From Natrinema versiforme (GTDB lineage: Archaea; Halobacteriota; Halobacteria; Halobacteriales; Natrialbaceae), in contig NZ_CP040330.1 of NCBI RefSeq assembly GCF_005576615.1, forward strand, positions 2,666,001 to 2,730,000: a stretch of DNA of 64,000 nt, given 5' to 3'. How positions within the stretch are numbered: position 1 is the first letter of the stretch; each line of letters starts with the position of its first letter. This document shows positions 45,551 to 53,175 of this stretch, in pieces. The notes under the pieces were generated by a model. The model was not told the DNA's origin and made no database searches. It saw nothing but the letters and a program-made list of their open reading frames with translations. The translations under genes were made by a program, and so were the position numbers.

Positions 45551-46981
45551 TCAAAACGCGAGCGCGTCGACGAGGATCGCGACCAGCACGGCTCCGAGGA
45601 ACGCGTTCGAGGCGTGGAACGCGCGGAACGCGGCGGCCTCGGTCTGCTCGAAGTGGAGTCGAACGGCGGCCCAGAGGAAGATCCCGCCGAAGACGACGAC
45701 CGTCCCGGCGTACAGCGGACCGAGGTCGGTGAGCCACGCCAGCGCGATCGAACTCACGAGCGTCGCAGCGATGTAGTAGATGATCTGCTTTCGCGTCTCT
45801 GTCTCGCCGCGGACGACCGGCATCATGGGGAAGCCGCCGCGAGCGTAGTCGTTCTTGTAGGCCAGCGCGAGGTTGTAGAAGTGTGCCGGCGTCCAGAGGA
45901 AGATGACGCCCGCGAGCGCGAGGCCGGGCCAGCCGATTTCGTTCGTGACGGCGGCCCAGCCGATGAGCGCAGGCAGTGCGCCCGCAGCGCCGCCGATGAC
46001 CGTATTCTGGACCGTGTTCGGTTTGAGGAGGAGCGTGTAGACCACGCTGTAGAAGATGATCGCGGCCAGCCCGAGCGCCGCGGCCAGCCGGTTGATCGTC
46101 AGGAACGCGGCCAGCGACGCGACGGTCAGTCCGGCGCCGAACAGCAAGGCGTTGCGAACCGGAATCAGATCGACCGCCAGCGGCCGGTCTGCCGTGCGGG
46201 ACATCTTCTGGTCGACATCGCGCTCGAGGACGTGGTTGAAGGTCCCCGAGGCGCCGATCGCGAGGACGCCGCCGCCGAGCGTCGCGATGATCGTGGGAAT
46301 CTCGAGGCCGGGGCCGGCGGCCAGCGCCATCCCCGCGGCGGCGACGAGACAGAGCAGCCACATCAGTCGCGGTTTCATCATCTGGAAGTACGCGAAGGCG
46401 GTGAGCCGAGCGCGAGCGAGGCGACTCGAGGGGAGCGTGCGTTCCGAGGCGGTCGGCACCGATTCCTCGAGATCCGCGAGCGGCTCGGGCGAGTCGATAC
46501 CGTCCTCGTCCTCGCTGCCGGTCGCGAGCTCGAGGTCCCACGCGAGCGCGAGGACGATCCCCGAGAAGATCACGAGTCCGAGCCCGAGGTGGAGCCCGGG
46601 GAGGATCGCCGCGGGGCCGATCGTCGCGGTGACGGCACCGACGCCGATCTGGACGACGTAGAGCGCGGCGGCGACGACGAGCGTCGTTCGGATACGGCTC
46701 GAGGTGTCGCCGAGGACCGCGGCGACGGCGGTCGCGGCGACGAGCAGGCCGACGACGACCGCCGTGAGCCGGTGGGCCCACGCGATCGCGAGCTCGGTCT
46801 GACTCAGCGGGTCGACGGGCGCGTGACAGGTCGGCCACGTCGAACACGACGCGGCCGCGTTCGTCAGCGAAGTCGTCGCGCCGACGATCAGGAGCAGGTA
46901 GACGCCCAGCGCGGTCGCTGCGAGCAGTGCTGAGAAGCGGCGTCGCGTGCCGATCGGGCGGGGAAACGACTCTCTTGCCAC
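45551..46981 (-). CDS. ctaB: CtaA-half / protoheme IX farnesyltransferase (CtaB) fusion
   Basis: A 476-residue membrane protein in two parts. Residues about 1-165 are one four-helix half of heme A synthase: CSTWPTC is the CtaA cysteine pair, AWAHRL and PGLHLGLG carry heme-ligand-like His. After an acidic linker (about 168-200) comes CtaB, with FNHVLERDVDQKMSRTADRP (the Asp-rich prenyl-diphosphate motif), LKPNTVQNTVIGGAAGALPA and YKNDYARGGFPMMPV. CtaB adds the farnesyl tail to heme B to give heme O for terminal oxidases. A single CtaA half cannot obviously finish heme A on its own. Start ATG at 46981. Confidence 0.9.
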   Translation of the reverse strand: MARESFPRPIGTRRRFSALLAATALGVYLLLIVGATTSLTNAAASCSTWPTCHAPVDPLSQTELAIAWAHRLTAVVVGLLVAATAVAAVLGDTSSRIRTTLVVAAALYVVQIGVGAVTATIGPAAILPGLHLGLGLVIFSGIVLALAWDLELATGSEDEDGIDSPEPLADLEESVPTASERTLPSSRLARARLTAFAYFQMMKPRLMWLLCLVAAAGMALAAGPGLEIPTIIATLGGGVLAIGASGTFNHVLERDVDQKMSRTADRPLAVDLIPVRNALLFGAGLTVASLAAFLTINRLAAALGLAAIIFYSVVYTLLLKPNTVQNTVIGGAAGALPALIGWAAVTNEIGWPGLALAGVIFLWTPAHFYNLALAYKNDYARGGFPMMPVVRGETETRKQIIYYIAATLVSSIALAWLTDLGPLYAGTVVVFGGIFLWAAVRLHFEQTEAAAFRAFHASNAFLGAVLVAILVDALAF

Positions 46982-49421: not shown

Positions 49422-50615
49422 CTACTCCTCGAGCAGTTGGTCGCCGATCGTGTTCCGCAGCACTTCGCTGGTACCCTCGTAGATCTCGTTGAGTTTCGCG
49501 TCGCGGTAGAACCGCTGGGCGGCGAAGTCCTTTGTGTAGCCGTAGCCGCCGTGGATCTGGATGCCCTCGTTGGCGACCTCGCGGCTGACCTCGGAGGCGT
49601 AGAGCTTGGCCTGCGAGGCGTCTTTGATGTAGTCCTCGCCGCGGATCTTCTTGTCCGCGGCCTTGTGCATGAGCATCTTCGCGGCCTGAATCTTCGTGTC
49701 CATGTCCGCGAGCTTGTGTTTGATCGACTGGAACTCGCCGATCGGTTGGCCGAACTGCTCGCGCTCGTTGGCATAGTCGCGGGCCTCCTCGAAGGCCGCG
49801 CGGGCGATACCGACACCGCGGGCGGCGATCGTGATTCGGCCGCCGTTGAGCGTTTTCAGCGCGTGGACGAAGCCCTCGCCCTCCTCTCCGAGTCGACGCG
49901 ATTCCGGAATGCGGAGGTCGTCGAACCGGAGTTCGGCGGTCGGACAGCCCTTATCGCCGAGTTTCTCCTCCGTGCCCTCGACGATGAAGCCCTCGTCCTC
50001 CTCGGGCCGGACGATAAAGGAGGAGATGCCCTTGTTGCCGGCCTCGGGGTCGGTCTTCGCGAAGAGCGTGACCGTGTCGGCGACGGAGCCGTTGGAGATC
50101 CAGAGCTTGCCGCCGTTGATCACGTACTCGTCGCCGTCCTTCTCCGCGGCTGCGCCGCTCCGTTCCGAGGCGCTTTGCGCCTCGCTCTTCTCTGCGGTGG
50201 TGTCCATGGCGGGCACGTCGCTCCCTGCTCCCGCTTCGGAGAGCGCGAACGCGCCGATGTCCCGACCCTCTGCCAGCGGCGTCAGGTACTCCTCCTTCTG
50301 GGACTCGTCGCCGAACTCGTAGAGCATGTTCCCCGCCAGCGAGGTATGGGCGGCGACGATCGTTCCCAGCCCGCCCGAGCCGCGAGCGATCTCCTCGAGC
50401 CCGATCGCATACGAGTGATAGTCCAGTCCGGCACCGCCGTACTCCTCGGGGAACGGCATTCCCATCAGCCCGAGGTCGGCCATCTCGCCGACGAGGTCGG
50501 CGGGGAACTCGTCCTCGTGGTCGATCTCGTCGGCGACGGGAACGACCTCCTCGTCGACGAACTCCGAGACCATGTCCCGAATCTGTTGCTGTTCGGCCGA
50601 GAGTGCGAAGTCCAT
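49422..50615 (-). CDS. Acyl-CoA dehydrogenase
   Basis: A 397-residue flavoprotein that makes the 2,3-double bond in acyl-CoA, the first step of beta-oxidation. FALSEAGAGSD (about 123-133) and WISNGSVADTVTLFAKTD are the FAD-binding middle domain; the catalytic Glu is in DAKLNEIYEGTSEVLRNTIG near the C-terminus. A low-complexity insertion (about 144-159, SEAQSASERSGAAAEK) lies in a loop of the middle domain and is flanked by a duplicated AEK. CTATAAAG (50639-50646) is centred 28 bases before the ATG, so the transcript is leaderless. Confidence 0.94.
   Translation of the reverse strand: MDFALSAEQQQIRDMVSEFVDEEVVPVADEIDHEDEFPADLVGEMADLGLMGMPFPEEYGGAGLDYHSYAIGLEEIARGSGGLGTIVAAHTSLAGNMLYEFGDESQKEEYLTPLAEGRDIGAFALSEAGAGSDVPAMDTTAEKSEAQSASERSGAAAEKDGDEYVINGGKLWISNGSVADTVTLFAKTDPEAGNKGISSFIVRPEEDEGFIVEGTEEKLGDKGCPTAELRFDDLRIPESRRLGEEGEGFVHALKTLNGGRITIAARGVGIARAAFEEARDYANEREQFGQPIGEFQSIKHKLADMDTKIQAAKMLMHKAADKKIRGEDYIKDASQAKLYASEVSREVANEGIQIHGGYGYTKDFAAQRFYRDAKLNEIYEGTSEVLRNTIGDQLLEE
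50139..50197. repeat. 48-nt palindromic insertion in the acyl-CoA dehydrogenase gene
   Basis: CTTCTC(C/T)GCGG occurs at 50139-50149 and 50187-50197, exactly 48 bases (16 codons) apart. Between them lies CGAGGCGC-TTT-GCGCCTCG (50166-50184), a perfect 8-bp hairpin. Typical family members lack these 16 residues, so this looks like a short palindromic unit inserted in frame with a target duplication. Confidence 0.55.
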
Positions 50616-50699: not shown

Positions 50700-51758
50700 T
50701 CACGCGGCCAATAGGCCGACGATGCTAGCGGTGACGAACAGGTTGGCGAACGAGCACACGAGCAGCCCCTTCCAGCCGATCTCGATCAGTTGGTCGATCC
50801 GGACTCGGGGCAGCGCGGAGCGCGCCCACTGCGTGAACAGGAACACGGCCCAGAGCTTGCCGAGGAACCAGACGAATCCGGGAAGGACCGGACCGGCTGG
50901 CCCGCCGAGGAAGACCGTGGCGACGATCGCACCGCCCAGAAAGACGTGGACGAACTCGCCCATGTAGACGAGTACGAAGTAGACCGAGGAGTACTCGGTC
51001 TGGTAGCCGGCGACGAGTTCGGTCGGTGCTTCGGGCACGTCGAAGGGGTTGCGGCCGACTTCCGCGAGGTTCGCCGTCAGAAACAGGGCGAAGGCGAAGG
51101 GGTTGACGATCGCGTACCACGACGGGATCGACAGCCCGCCGAGTTCGAAGAGCGTCGCTTGCTGGGCGGCGACGATTTCGCCCATCCGTAAGCTGCCGGC
51201 GAAGATCACGACCGACAGCCCGGTGACGATCAGCGGAATCTCGTAGGCGATGTTCTGTGCGACCGCACGCAGCCCGCCGAGCAGCGAGTACTTGTTCGCC
51301 GACGCGTAGCCGCACATCGTCAGTCCGAGCGTGGCGAGTGACGCGACCGCGAAGACGTACGCCAGCCCGACCTCGGGGTCGGCCAACTGAACGGTGATAC
51401 CGGCGATCGACCCCATCGGAACGACCGCGAACCCGACGATGGCCGAGAAGACGACGAGGACCGGACCGAGATCGTACGCCGGCCGGTCGGCTTCGTCCGG
51501 GACGATCAATTCCTTACCGAGCAGGCGGACGGCATCGGCGACGATGATTAGCGTTCCGCCGGGCCCGAGTCGGTTCGGGGCGATCCGGTCGGTGAACGCA
51601 GCCGTTACCTTGCGCTTTGCCCAGATAACGATCGCGGCACACGTCAATGGAATCGCTGCGACGAGTACGGCGGCAGCGATCGCAGCGACAGTCTGCTCGA
51701 GGAGCGTCGGCGAATTGCCGAACAGCGTCCGAGCAACCGCCTCGGGGAGGAGCGTCAT
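50700..51758 (-). CDS. Orphan NuoH-type (complex I subunit H) membrane protein
   Basis: A 352-residue subunit with about eight membrane segments. WAKRKVTAAFTDRIAPNRLGPGG corresponds to the ERK...QxRxGPN quinone-site motif of NuoH, and NLAEVGRNPFDVPEAPTELVAGYQTEYSS is the other NuoH signature. No other nuo genes are adjacent. This is either a displaced nuoH or a paralogue of the one expected in the nuo operon. The ATG at 51758 is preferred to that at 51803: with the TATA box at 51813-51819 the transcript would start near 51789. Divergent from a Bat-type HTH gene with which it shares a 39-bp promoter (if 51803) or 84 bp. Confidence 0.85.
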   Translation of the reverse strand: MTLLPEAVARTLFGNSPTLLEQTVAAIAAAVLVAAIPLTCAAIVIWAKRKVTAAFTDRIAPNRLGPGGTLIIVADAVRLLGKELIVPDEADRPAYDLGPVLVVFSAIVGFAVVPMGSIAGITVQLADPEVGLAYVFAVASLATLGLTMCGYASANKYSLLGGLRAVAQNIAYEIPLIVTGLSVVIFAGSLRMGEIVAAQQATLFELGGLSIPSWYAIVNPFAFALFLTANLAEVGRNPFDVPEAPTELVAGYQTEYSSVYFVLVYMGEFVHVFLGGAIVATVFLGGPAGPVLPGFVWFLGKLWAVFLFTQWARSALPRVRIDQLIEIGWKGLLVCSFANLFVTASIVGLLAA

Positions 51759-51804
51759 GCGCAGTGGTTCGGCCCGATCCAGGAGTTTGGTTCTGCGAGA
51801 CATA

Positions 51805-51833
51805 TTCGGACATTTATAGTAGCGCCGTCCGAA
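51805..51833. promoter_or_regulatory. Divergent nuoH/HTH promoter with inverted repeat around the TATA box
   Basis: TTCGGAC (51805-51811) and GTCCGAA (51827-51833) are perfect 7-bp inverted arms, 22 bases centre to centre, enclosing TTTATAG (51813-51819). The TATA centre is 27 bases before the HTH gene ATG (51843), so that transcript is leaderless. The reverse reading CTATAAA could start nuoH transcription about 27 bases the other way. A dimer on the arms would control both genes. Confidence 0.6.
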
Positions 51834-51842
51834 CCCCGAGCT

Positions 51843-52493
51843 ATGCGGTATCTCCGACTGACCGTCCGGCCGACGGACCGCGAAATCCATCCGGTGCACA
51901 CGGTCATGACGGAGCGGGAGTTCGTCGATCGCGTCCGGATGGTCCACTGGAACATCGCGGACATCGACGTCCCAGCCATCCTGTTCTCCGTCGTCGGCGA
52001 CACCGAAGCGCTCGCGGACGCGCTCGAGTCGACCGCCGAAATCGAGTCGTTCGCCATCACGCGAATCGATGAGCGACGGTTCTACTGTTATACGCAGGGG
52101 CGGACGACCGCGGTCGAACGAGCCCTGTACGAGGCGTTTACGCGTGATGGGCTGCTCGTCCTCCCACCGTTGACCTACGAGGACGACGGTGGGGTCCGCT
52201 TCGAGGTGGTCGGCGAGGCCGACGCGCTCCGGACTGCATTGGCGACTGTTCCTGACGGAATCGACGTCGCGGTCGAACGCGTCGGGGAGTACGACACGGC
52301 GCGAGAAACCGTCGATGCTGCGCTTACGTCGCGCCAGCGCGAAGCGATCACCACCGCGCTGGCAACGGGCTACTACGAAACCCCGCGCGAGGCGACGATC
52401 GAGGACGTAGCGGCGGAACTGGAATGTGCGCGAAGTACCGCGGCGGAGCACCTCCAGAAGGCGGAGTCACGCATTATCCGAACGGTACTGTGA
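51843..52493 (+). CDS. Bat-type HTH transcription regulator
   Basis: A 216-residue regulator of the bacterio-opsin activator (HTH-10) family. Residues about 1-150 form the amino-terminal sensor-like domain found in many stand-alone Bat-type proteins (YLRLTVRPTDREIHPVHTVM, then VVGEADALRTAL). The C-terminal HTH is LTSRQREAITTALATGYYETPREATIEDVAAELECARSTAAEHLQKAESRI. It has no PAS or GAF domain. Leaderless start at 51843. Divergent from the orphan nuoH, which is its natural candidate target, possibly with autoregulation through the inverted repeat between them. Confidence 0.88.
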   Translation: MRYLRLTVRPTDREIHPVHTVMTEREFVDRVRMVHWNIADIDVPAILFSVVGDTEALADALESTAEIESFAITRIDERRFYCYTQGRTTAVERALYEAFTRDGLLVLPPLTYEDDGGVRFEVVGEADALRTALATVPDGIDVAVERVGEYDTARETVDAALTSRQREAITTALATGYYETPREATIEDVAAELECARSTAAEHLQKAESRIIRTVL

Positions 52494-52533: not shown

Positions 52534-53175
52534 TTACTGCGAGCAGAACCACTCGAGGGCCTCGTCGATCGGCTCGTCGCCCGAGAGAATCTCGAAGGTC
52601 TCCCCGATGAGAGCGTCGTAGTCGAGCGTGGCCACGAGGGTTCGGGCGACGTCCTCGCGGGGAATATCCCCGGCGTCCAGTCCGATGTCCTCTCCGAGTT
52701 CGATCGTCCCGACCCCGGAGTCGTTGGTCAGCTCCCCCGGCCGGACGATCGTGTGGTCGAGGCCGCTCTGCCGGAGGTACTCGTCGGCCTCCGCTTTCGC
52801 AGTCAGGTAGTCCTCGAGCGCGTCGGGACCGGCCGCGGGATCGTCGGCACCCATCGAACTGAGCATGACGAACCGGTCGACGCCGGCGTCGCCCGCCGCG
52901 TCGATCAGGTTGATCGCCCCGTCGCGGTCGACACCGTAGACATCCTCGCCGCCGGAGCCGGCCGCGAAGAGTATCGCGTCGCAGCCCTCGACCGCGTGAT
53001 CGACATCGCCGGTCAGGTCCGCGACGACCGGCTCGCCGCCCAGGTCCGCCATTTCGTCGGTCTGGGAGTCGTCGCGGACCATCGCTCGAGCGGTGTGCTC
53101 GCTCTCGCCGAGTAGTTCCGTGATATGCTGTCCGACCTGTCCGTGAGCGCCGGCGATGAGTACGGTCCGAGTCAC
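52534..53175 (-). CDS. NmrA/SDR-like NAD(P)-binding protein
   Basis: A 213-residue atypical SDR. TVLIAGAHGQVGQHITELL is the Rossmann glycine motif (GAxGxxG), DAILFAAGSGG near 68, FVMLSSMGADDP near 105 and LDHTIVRPGELTND near 145. There is no YxxxK pair (DYLTAKAEAD approximates it). Such proteins act as NAD(P)-binding sensors or as reductases of flavin- or quinone-like compounds. Start GTG at 53175. It converges with the HTH gene; substrate unknown. Confidence 0.83.
   Translation of the reverse strand: MTRTVLIAGAHGQVGQHITELLGESEHTARAMVRDDSQTDEMADLGGEPVVADLTGDVDHAVEGCDAILFAAGSGGEDVYGVDRDGAINLIDAAGDAGVDRFVMLSSMGADDPAAGPDALEDYLTAKAEADEYLRQSGLDHTIVRPGELTNDSGVGTIELGEDIGLDAGDIPREDVARTLVATLDYDALIGETFEILSGDEPIDEALEWFCSQ

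Follow-up and report, generated by a model that had tools for sequence, protein, structure and literature searches.

An orphan nuoH and its divergent HVO_0513_N/HTH_10 regulator in Natrinema versiforme, a putative case of a haloarchaeal class of spare quinone-site subunits

Complex I is usually viewed as one operon giving rise to one enzyme. The stretch of Natrinema versiforme DNA analysed here (the window, 64,000 nucleotides) raises the question of why a single nuoH gene should stand by itself, back to back with the gene of a regulator, and what in the short gap between them controls which gene. The nuoH (50700..51758, minus strand, 352 aa) and the regulator gene (51843..52493, plus strand, 216 aa) are separated by 84 bp. 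A preliminary description had placed the two start codons at 51758 (−) and 51843, the sequence TTTATAG at 51813–51819 and, framing it, the arms of an inverted repeat, TTCGGAC (51805..51811, plus) and GTCCGAA (51827..51833, plus); these coordinates are exact. It was proposed that the regulator, called Bat-type, acts on this repeat to control both genes.

The window protein lies far above the gathering score of PF00146 (E 1e-97; 327.6 bits, cut-off 27) and misses the NCBIfam NuoH equivalog cut-off (NF004741, 282 bits vs 305), a score that was obtained for the window copy alone and a shortfall that may hold for haloarchaeal NuoH in general. It was filed as a NuoH homologue, its status as a complex I subunit being putative. 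A tblastn search with 11 nuo proteins found no further nuo genes in the 64-kb window, in agreement with the view of a stand-alone gene. A second nuoH, for which a check had been suggested, is present at G000:C2:2637534-2638592, about 79 kb from the window copy, within the complete operon nuoA-B-CD-H-I-J-J-K-L-M-N. Since this second copy sits in an intact operon, the orphan nuoH is a true extra copy, and the possibility that it is the displaced sole nuoH of the genome is ruled out.

The regulator matched HVO_0513_N (PF24278, E 7e-26, 90.9 bits with a gathering cut-off of 29.8) and HTH_10 (PF04967, E 8e-18, 64.5 bits with a cut-off of 23.1). These were the sole matches of the domain search, and neither a PAS nor a GAF domain was found. 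Bat carries GAF and PAS/PAC sensor domains ahead of its HTH (PMC1447603). Since it lacks both of Bat's defining domains, PAS and GAF, the regulator is not Bat: it has the DNA-binding HTH_10 domain in common with Bat, and its N-terminal domain is HVO_0513_N. The response to light or redox that had been suggested by analogy to Bat is not borne out, HTH_10 alone being held in common and no sensor domain having been found. The predicted fold (pLDDT 89) has an alpha/beta N-terminal part; no sequence relatives of the regulator were found in the PDB, nor any convincing match to the model, the best plausible one being Ta1207 with a TM-score of 0.46. The window genome contains about 46 members of the HVO_0513_N/HTH_10 family. 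One family regulator at another locus (L200:5968-8048; G000:C2 ~3052967-3055047) is divergent from a cytochrome P450 gene, and its nearest neighbours in the tree are the NuoB-linked regulators treated below.

A scan of GTDB contigs with the regulator gave one named orthologue, in Natrinema zhouii, and one chance match. The pair was found in six species, the window genome and G008, G021 (Natrinema zhouii), G228, G327 and G315, the last of which belongs to another family. All six regulator orthologues are divergent from an orphan nuoH, with 85–104 bp between the starts of the aligned parts, and they form one clade (support 100/100). In Natrinema species and in G228 the pair lies between the genes of an acyl-CoA dehydrogenase (49422..50615, minus) and of an NAD(P)-binding, NmrA-like protein (52534..53175, minus), which border an empty site in congeners. 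The close sisters G025, G018 and G022 lack the pair at that site, from which it follows that the pair is dispensable; its patchy yet joint presence suggests that the two genes have repeatedly been lost or transferred together. In G315 the pair is found near menD, menA and enolase-superfamily genes (L147:10-8524), a neighbourhood that is a possible link to menaquinone. Elsewhere in the window (45551-46981, minus) one 476-aa protein is encoded that joins a CtaA-type (COX15) to a UbiA-type (CtaB-like) domain, presumably for haem A synthesis.

Which part of the gap could serve as a binding site was addressed by comparison of the six species. When the 84-bp gap was shuffled by dinucleotides, 5% of the resulting sequences contained a perfect 7-bp inverted repeat with a spacer of 3–30, as did 24% of 84-bp slices taken at random from the window, and two more 7-bp pairs occur within the same 121 bp; as chance produces such a repeat in 5–24% of cases, the arms alone are unremarkable. 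A repeat that frames a TATA is rarer (0.025% of shuffles, one in the window, one exact copy in the genome), a test that was devised after the repeat had been seen. The reading put forward in the preliminary description, in which a dimer binds the 29-bp repeat TTCGGAC-N15-GTCCGAA across the TATA, draws on this uniqueness of the perfect arms, on the outer TTCG and CGAA, which are kept in all six species, and on a similar, though imperfect, repeat that spans two TATA boxes between brz and brp in Halobacterium (PMC2253796). Against it, complementarity of the arms amounts to 7, 6, 5, 6, 5 and 4 of 7 pairs, so that they are perfect in one of the six species; the right arm reads GACCGAA, GAGCGAA, GACCGAA, GATCGAA and GA-CGAA in the five relatives, with CGAA alone retained, and the strongest conservation is found on the other side, at 51791–51804. 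Related modules at other loci share the hexamer TTCTGC and not the repeat. The alignment thus rules out the inverted repeat as a conserved operator, and we consider operator function of the 29-bp repeat very unlikely. Of the earlier proposal that the regulator controls nuoH and itself, the control is favoured by a pair that is kept divergent and by a conserved element, and the repeat as its site is not.

This element, TTCTGCGAGACATATTCGG (TTCTGCG-N7-TTCGG; 51791..51809, plus), includes TTCGG of the left arm, and its TTCTGC starts 22 bp before TTTATA. It is invariant at 16 of 19 positions in the six species, as compared to 11 of 52 gap positions outside it, the TATA and the CGAAC block being left out of the count (Fisher 2e-6), and to 75 of 235 fourfold degenerate sites of both genes (Fisher 1e-5). 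An upstream ATG of nuoH at 51803 overlaps it. A stop codon lies between the two candidate starts in G021, ATC replaces the upstream ATG in G315 and the remainder of the extension is divergent; for these reasons the start at 51758 was preferred, a start at 51803, which would make the conserved block part of the reading frame, was rejected, and the element is taken as non-coding. Searched in degenerate form, it has exactly one perfect match in each of the six genomes, always in this gap. Other copies in these genomes have at least one mismatch, mostly three, and are about 1–5 times as frequent as those of a reversed-pattern control; none lies at the nuo operon within 3 mismatches in the list for the window genome. 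This distribution is in keeping with a local regulator, and we regard the element as the likely operator.

A single TATA box, TTTATA (51813..51818), lies between the two genes, at −30 for the regulator, and its TTTAT is invariant in the six species. It is also the sole AT-rich candidate for nuoH, a second short run, ATATT, being found inside the element in the NuoH modules. CGAAC (51830..51834, plus), at −13 to −9 of the regulator gene, is likewise invariant, and the regulator-side flank of the TATA, where a BRE of nuoH would sit, showed no conservation in the six species.

Loci with related regulators were then compared as the best matches to the regulator by similarity alone, nuo genes playing no part in their choice. 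Among the paralogous regulators the nearest (about 40–50% identity) have the same TTCTGCG at the same distance to the TATA, and their divergent neighbour is NuoCD. The divergent partner was NuoCD at 39 loci, NuoB at 4 and NuoH at 6 plus a distant one; about 52 loci had at least 40% identity, and four of them had no nuo gene at that place, one of these lying at a contig end. The hexamer TTCTGC, with at most one mismatch, stands exactly 22 bp before the regulator TATA in 38 of 50 loci, other offsets being represented 0–2 times; the 50 loci are kin by descent, so that the counts are not independent, and the hexamer spans families f1, f5, and f6 (one-base shift). In nearly all 50 module promoters the TATA lies 27–31 bp before the regulator start codon, from which leaderless regulator transcripts are predicted, as for the window regulator. 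Of the 39 NuoCD modules, 36 have a single AT-rich stretch within the 110 bp that precede the regulator, and a shared TATA is therefore apparently general; the claim of one TATA between the genes, made from the window, where there is likewise a single convincing AT island, is thereby extended.

The stand-alone NuoCD genes divergent from regulators (39 loci, L006-L032 and L127-L145) mostly have TTCTGC-N16-TTTATA and occur in most Natrinema and in other families. Stand-alone NuoB genes are divergent from HVO_0513_N/HTH_10 regulators at L026, L137, L142 and L145 (family f4), and of the NuoCD element their promoters share CTG and CTAG alone, with unchanged spacing. The window pair, with a divergent nuo subunit outside the operon and TTCTGC 22 bp before the TATA, shows the features by which these modules are defined and, judged from sequence, is one case of a haloarchaeal class that combines HVO_0513_N/HTH_10 regulators with spare quinone-site subunits over a shared TATA.

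The same comparison bears on whether the conserved element is a core promoter part, BRE or initiator, and not a binding site of the regulator. For the regulator gene its TATA-proximal half has the position of a BRE, and its end is close to where nuoH transcription is predicted to begin. TTCTGC, however, exceeds the haloarchaeal BRE, CGAAA, in length and lies at a greater distance upstream (PMC4983044), a single perfect copy per genome is unlike a general promoter part, and the element is common to paralogous regulators at fixed spacing. A core promoter is an improbable explanation of the element, and we retain the assignment to a likely operator.

Operon copies of the subunits are present in the genomes checked, so the module subunits are additional; NuoCD occurs in up to three copies per genome. 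A third type of NuoCD, present in most genomes examined, has no family regulator adjacent (L238:7540-9315; G000:C2 ~580540-582315, minus) and adjoins in the window genome the gene of a PF03601 (YeiH-like) membrane protein. Among congeners, NuoH and NuoCD modules appear by eye to exclude each other, a suggestive pattern of few cases. In G023 a broken remnant of an extra nuoH was found (L067:7063-7499), and the NuoCD module looks split (L029 and G023:C1:894336-895682). In the regulator tree the four NuoB-linked proteins form one clade (100/100), and the NuoCD-linked ones need two changes. A separate, deeper clade of regulators (G376, G042) also adjoins extra nuoH genes. In G042 the extra nuoH lies between cofG/cofC and an HTH_10 gene that adjoins cofH (F420 synthesis; L066:7050-12196); this regulator is convergent, and its nearest neighbour in the tree is the regulator that stands divergent to the extra nuoH of G376.

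Spare subunits could serve a separate enzyme or another role and not be exchanged into complex I. The loci lie apart, the orphan NuoH form an old clade of their own (six members, support 100/99, outside all sampled operon NuoH), and the neighbourhoods of menD/menA-type genes in G315 and of cofH, cofG and cofC around the extra nuoH in G042 may point in the same direction. However, no second full nuo set was found at the module loci examined, and the spare copies are mostly 66–80% identical to the operon subunits. Functional residues are kept: the PEAPTELVAGYQTEYS loop is intact in orphan NuoH, all four cysteines are retained in the NuoB of modules and HHP[S/A]THG in NuoCD. The orphan NuoH clade differs from operon NuoH by four fixed changes alone, none of which points to an altered quinone site. 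A separate role is thus rather unlikely. The intact key residues agree with function of the spare subunits, for which exchange into complex I remains the putative use.

Patchy occurrence, and regulator paralogues that adjoin other genes such as the P450, would also be expected of a passive relic, a duplicated nuoH carried beside an unrelated regulator. Such an origin can hardly be reconciled with the recurrence of three different quinone-site subunits with the regulator, with the presence of the pair together in another family at another locus, or with the conserved element and the dN/dS values (0.11–0.25 for orphan nuoH, 0.11–0.35 over both genes), which indicate purifying selection on nuoH and regulator alike; we regard it as most improbable. 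Local control of both genes by the regulator has good comparative support.

NuoH, NuoCD and NuoB are the complex I subunits that form the quinone chamber. That exactly these three occur as spare copies suggests that the quinone site can be exchanged, and the arrangement of the window gap can be read in this sense. The regulator would bind TTCTGCG-N7-TTCGG (51791–51809) beside the single TATA, which would be used in both directions. The predicted transcript of the regulator is leaderless and starts at 51843; the element would then occupy −52 to −34 of this gene, like an upstream activator site. Two-way transcription from one TATA in Pyrococcus furiosus has starts 49 bp apart (PMC6640164), and with a distance of about 50 bp the nuoH start is expected near 51790–51795 (about 51793), with a leader of 30–35 bases. 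Given that the element lies between the TATA and this predicted start, a bound protein would most simply block nuoH, which would be off while the regulator is bound and on when a signal releases the block. Once made, the spare NuoH may take the place of its operon-encoded counterpart in complex I, with a change to the quinone site. That the regulator acts through the element on both its own gene and nuoH, most simply as a block on nuoH until a signal arrives, appears to us the probable course of events at this locus; whether the control is positive or negative, what the signal is and how the spare subunit is used are the parts that we infer. Against this reading stand the unconserved flank at the BRE position of nuoH, the patchy occurrence of the pair, the little that the NuoB modules share with the NuoCD element and the about 46 family members of the genome, which could bind such sites as well. 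Extended to the whole class, with regulator-gated NuoH, NuoCD and NuoB each swapped singly into complex I upon a signal such as a quinone-site poison or a changed electron donor or quinone, the proposal is possible and is put forward tentatively.

The bop UAS contains ACTAGTT-N-GG, and the CTAG of the NuoCD and NuoB elements is in a place similar to that of its CTAG, which may serve as a lead. The Bat/bop regulon of Halobacterium salinarum has the same C-terminal HTH_10 and a site upstream of the promoter (bop UAS; PMC1447603, PMC3184054), whereas the window regulator has HVO_0513_N, no PAS/GAF and no link to light, and its target, by position, is a complex I subunit. In brz-brp of Halobacterium an inverted repeat overlaps the TATA boxes of two divergent genes (PMC2253796); there are two TATA boxes there and one in the window gap, the genes are others, and the window repeat is not conserved. 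The BRE-TATA-BRE promoters of Pyrococcus furiosus yield two transcripts per TATA, as proposed here, but mostly as antisense noise, in contrast to two protein genes and a conserved extra element in the window. Leaderless transcripts make up 72% of coding transcripts in Haloferax (PMC4983044). Divergent autoregulated regulator/target pairs in general have the same layout and presumed local control; the targets here are, unlike those, single spare quinone-site subunits, in parallel for NuoH, NuoCD and NuoB. The haloarchaeal nuo operon, complete in the window genome, encodes the same NuoH, NuoCD and NuoB families, whereas the module genes are extra single genes elsewhere, each with its own divergent regulator. 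Haloarchaeal complex I is without NuoEFG and may oxidise ferredoxin (PMC8305020).

In mainly open-access literature we found no account of haloarchaeal spare nuo subunits that have regulators of their own, which suggests that the class is so far undescribed. The modules also offer a first candidate target site, with candidate target genes, for the large HVO_0513_N/HTH_10 family, which has about 46 members in this genome, and the gap is a natural case in which to test whether a single TATA can drive two haloarchaeal protein genes. If the proposal is true, recurrent spare quinone-chamber subunits with dedicated regulators would mean that the quinone site is built for exchange, and the modules would suggest that a respiratory enzyme can have its components changed in a manner hitherto undescribed.
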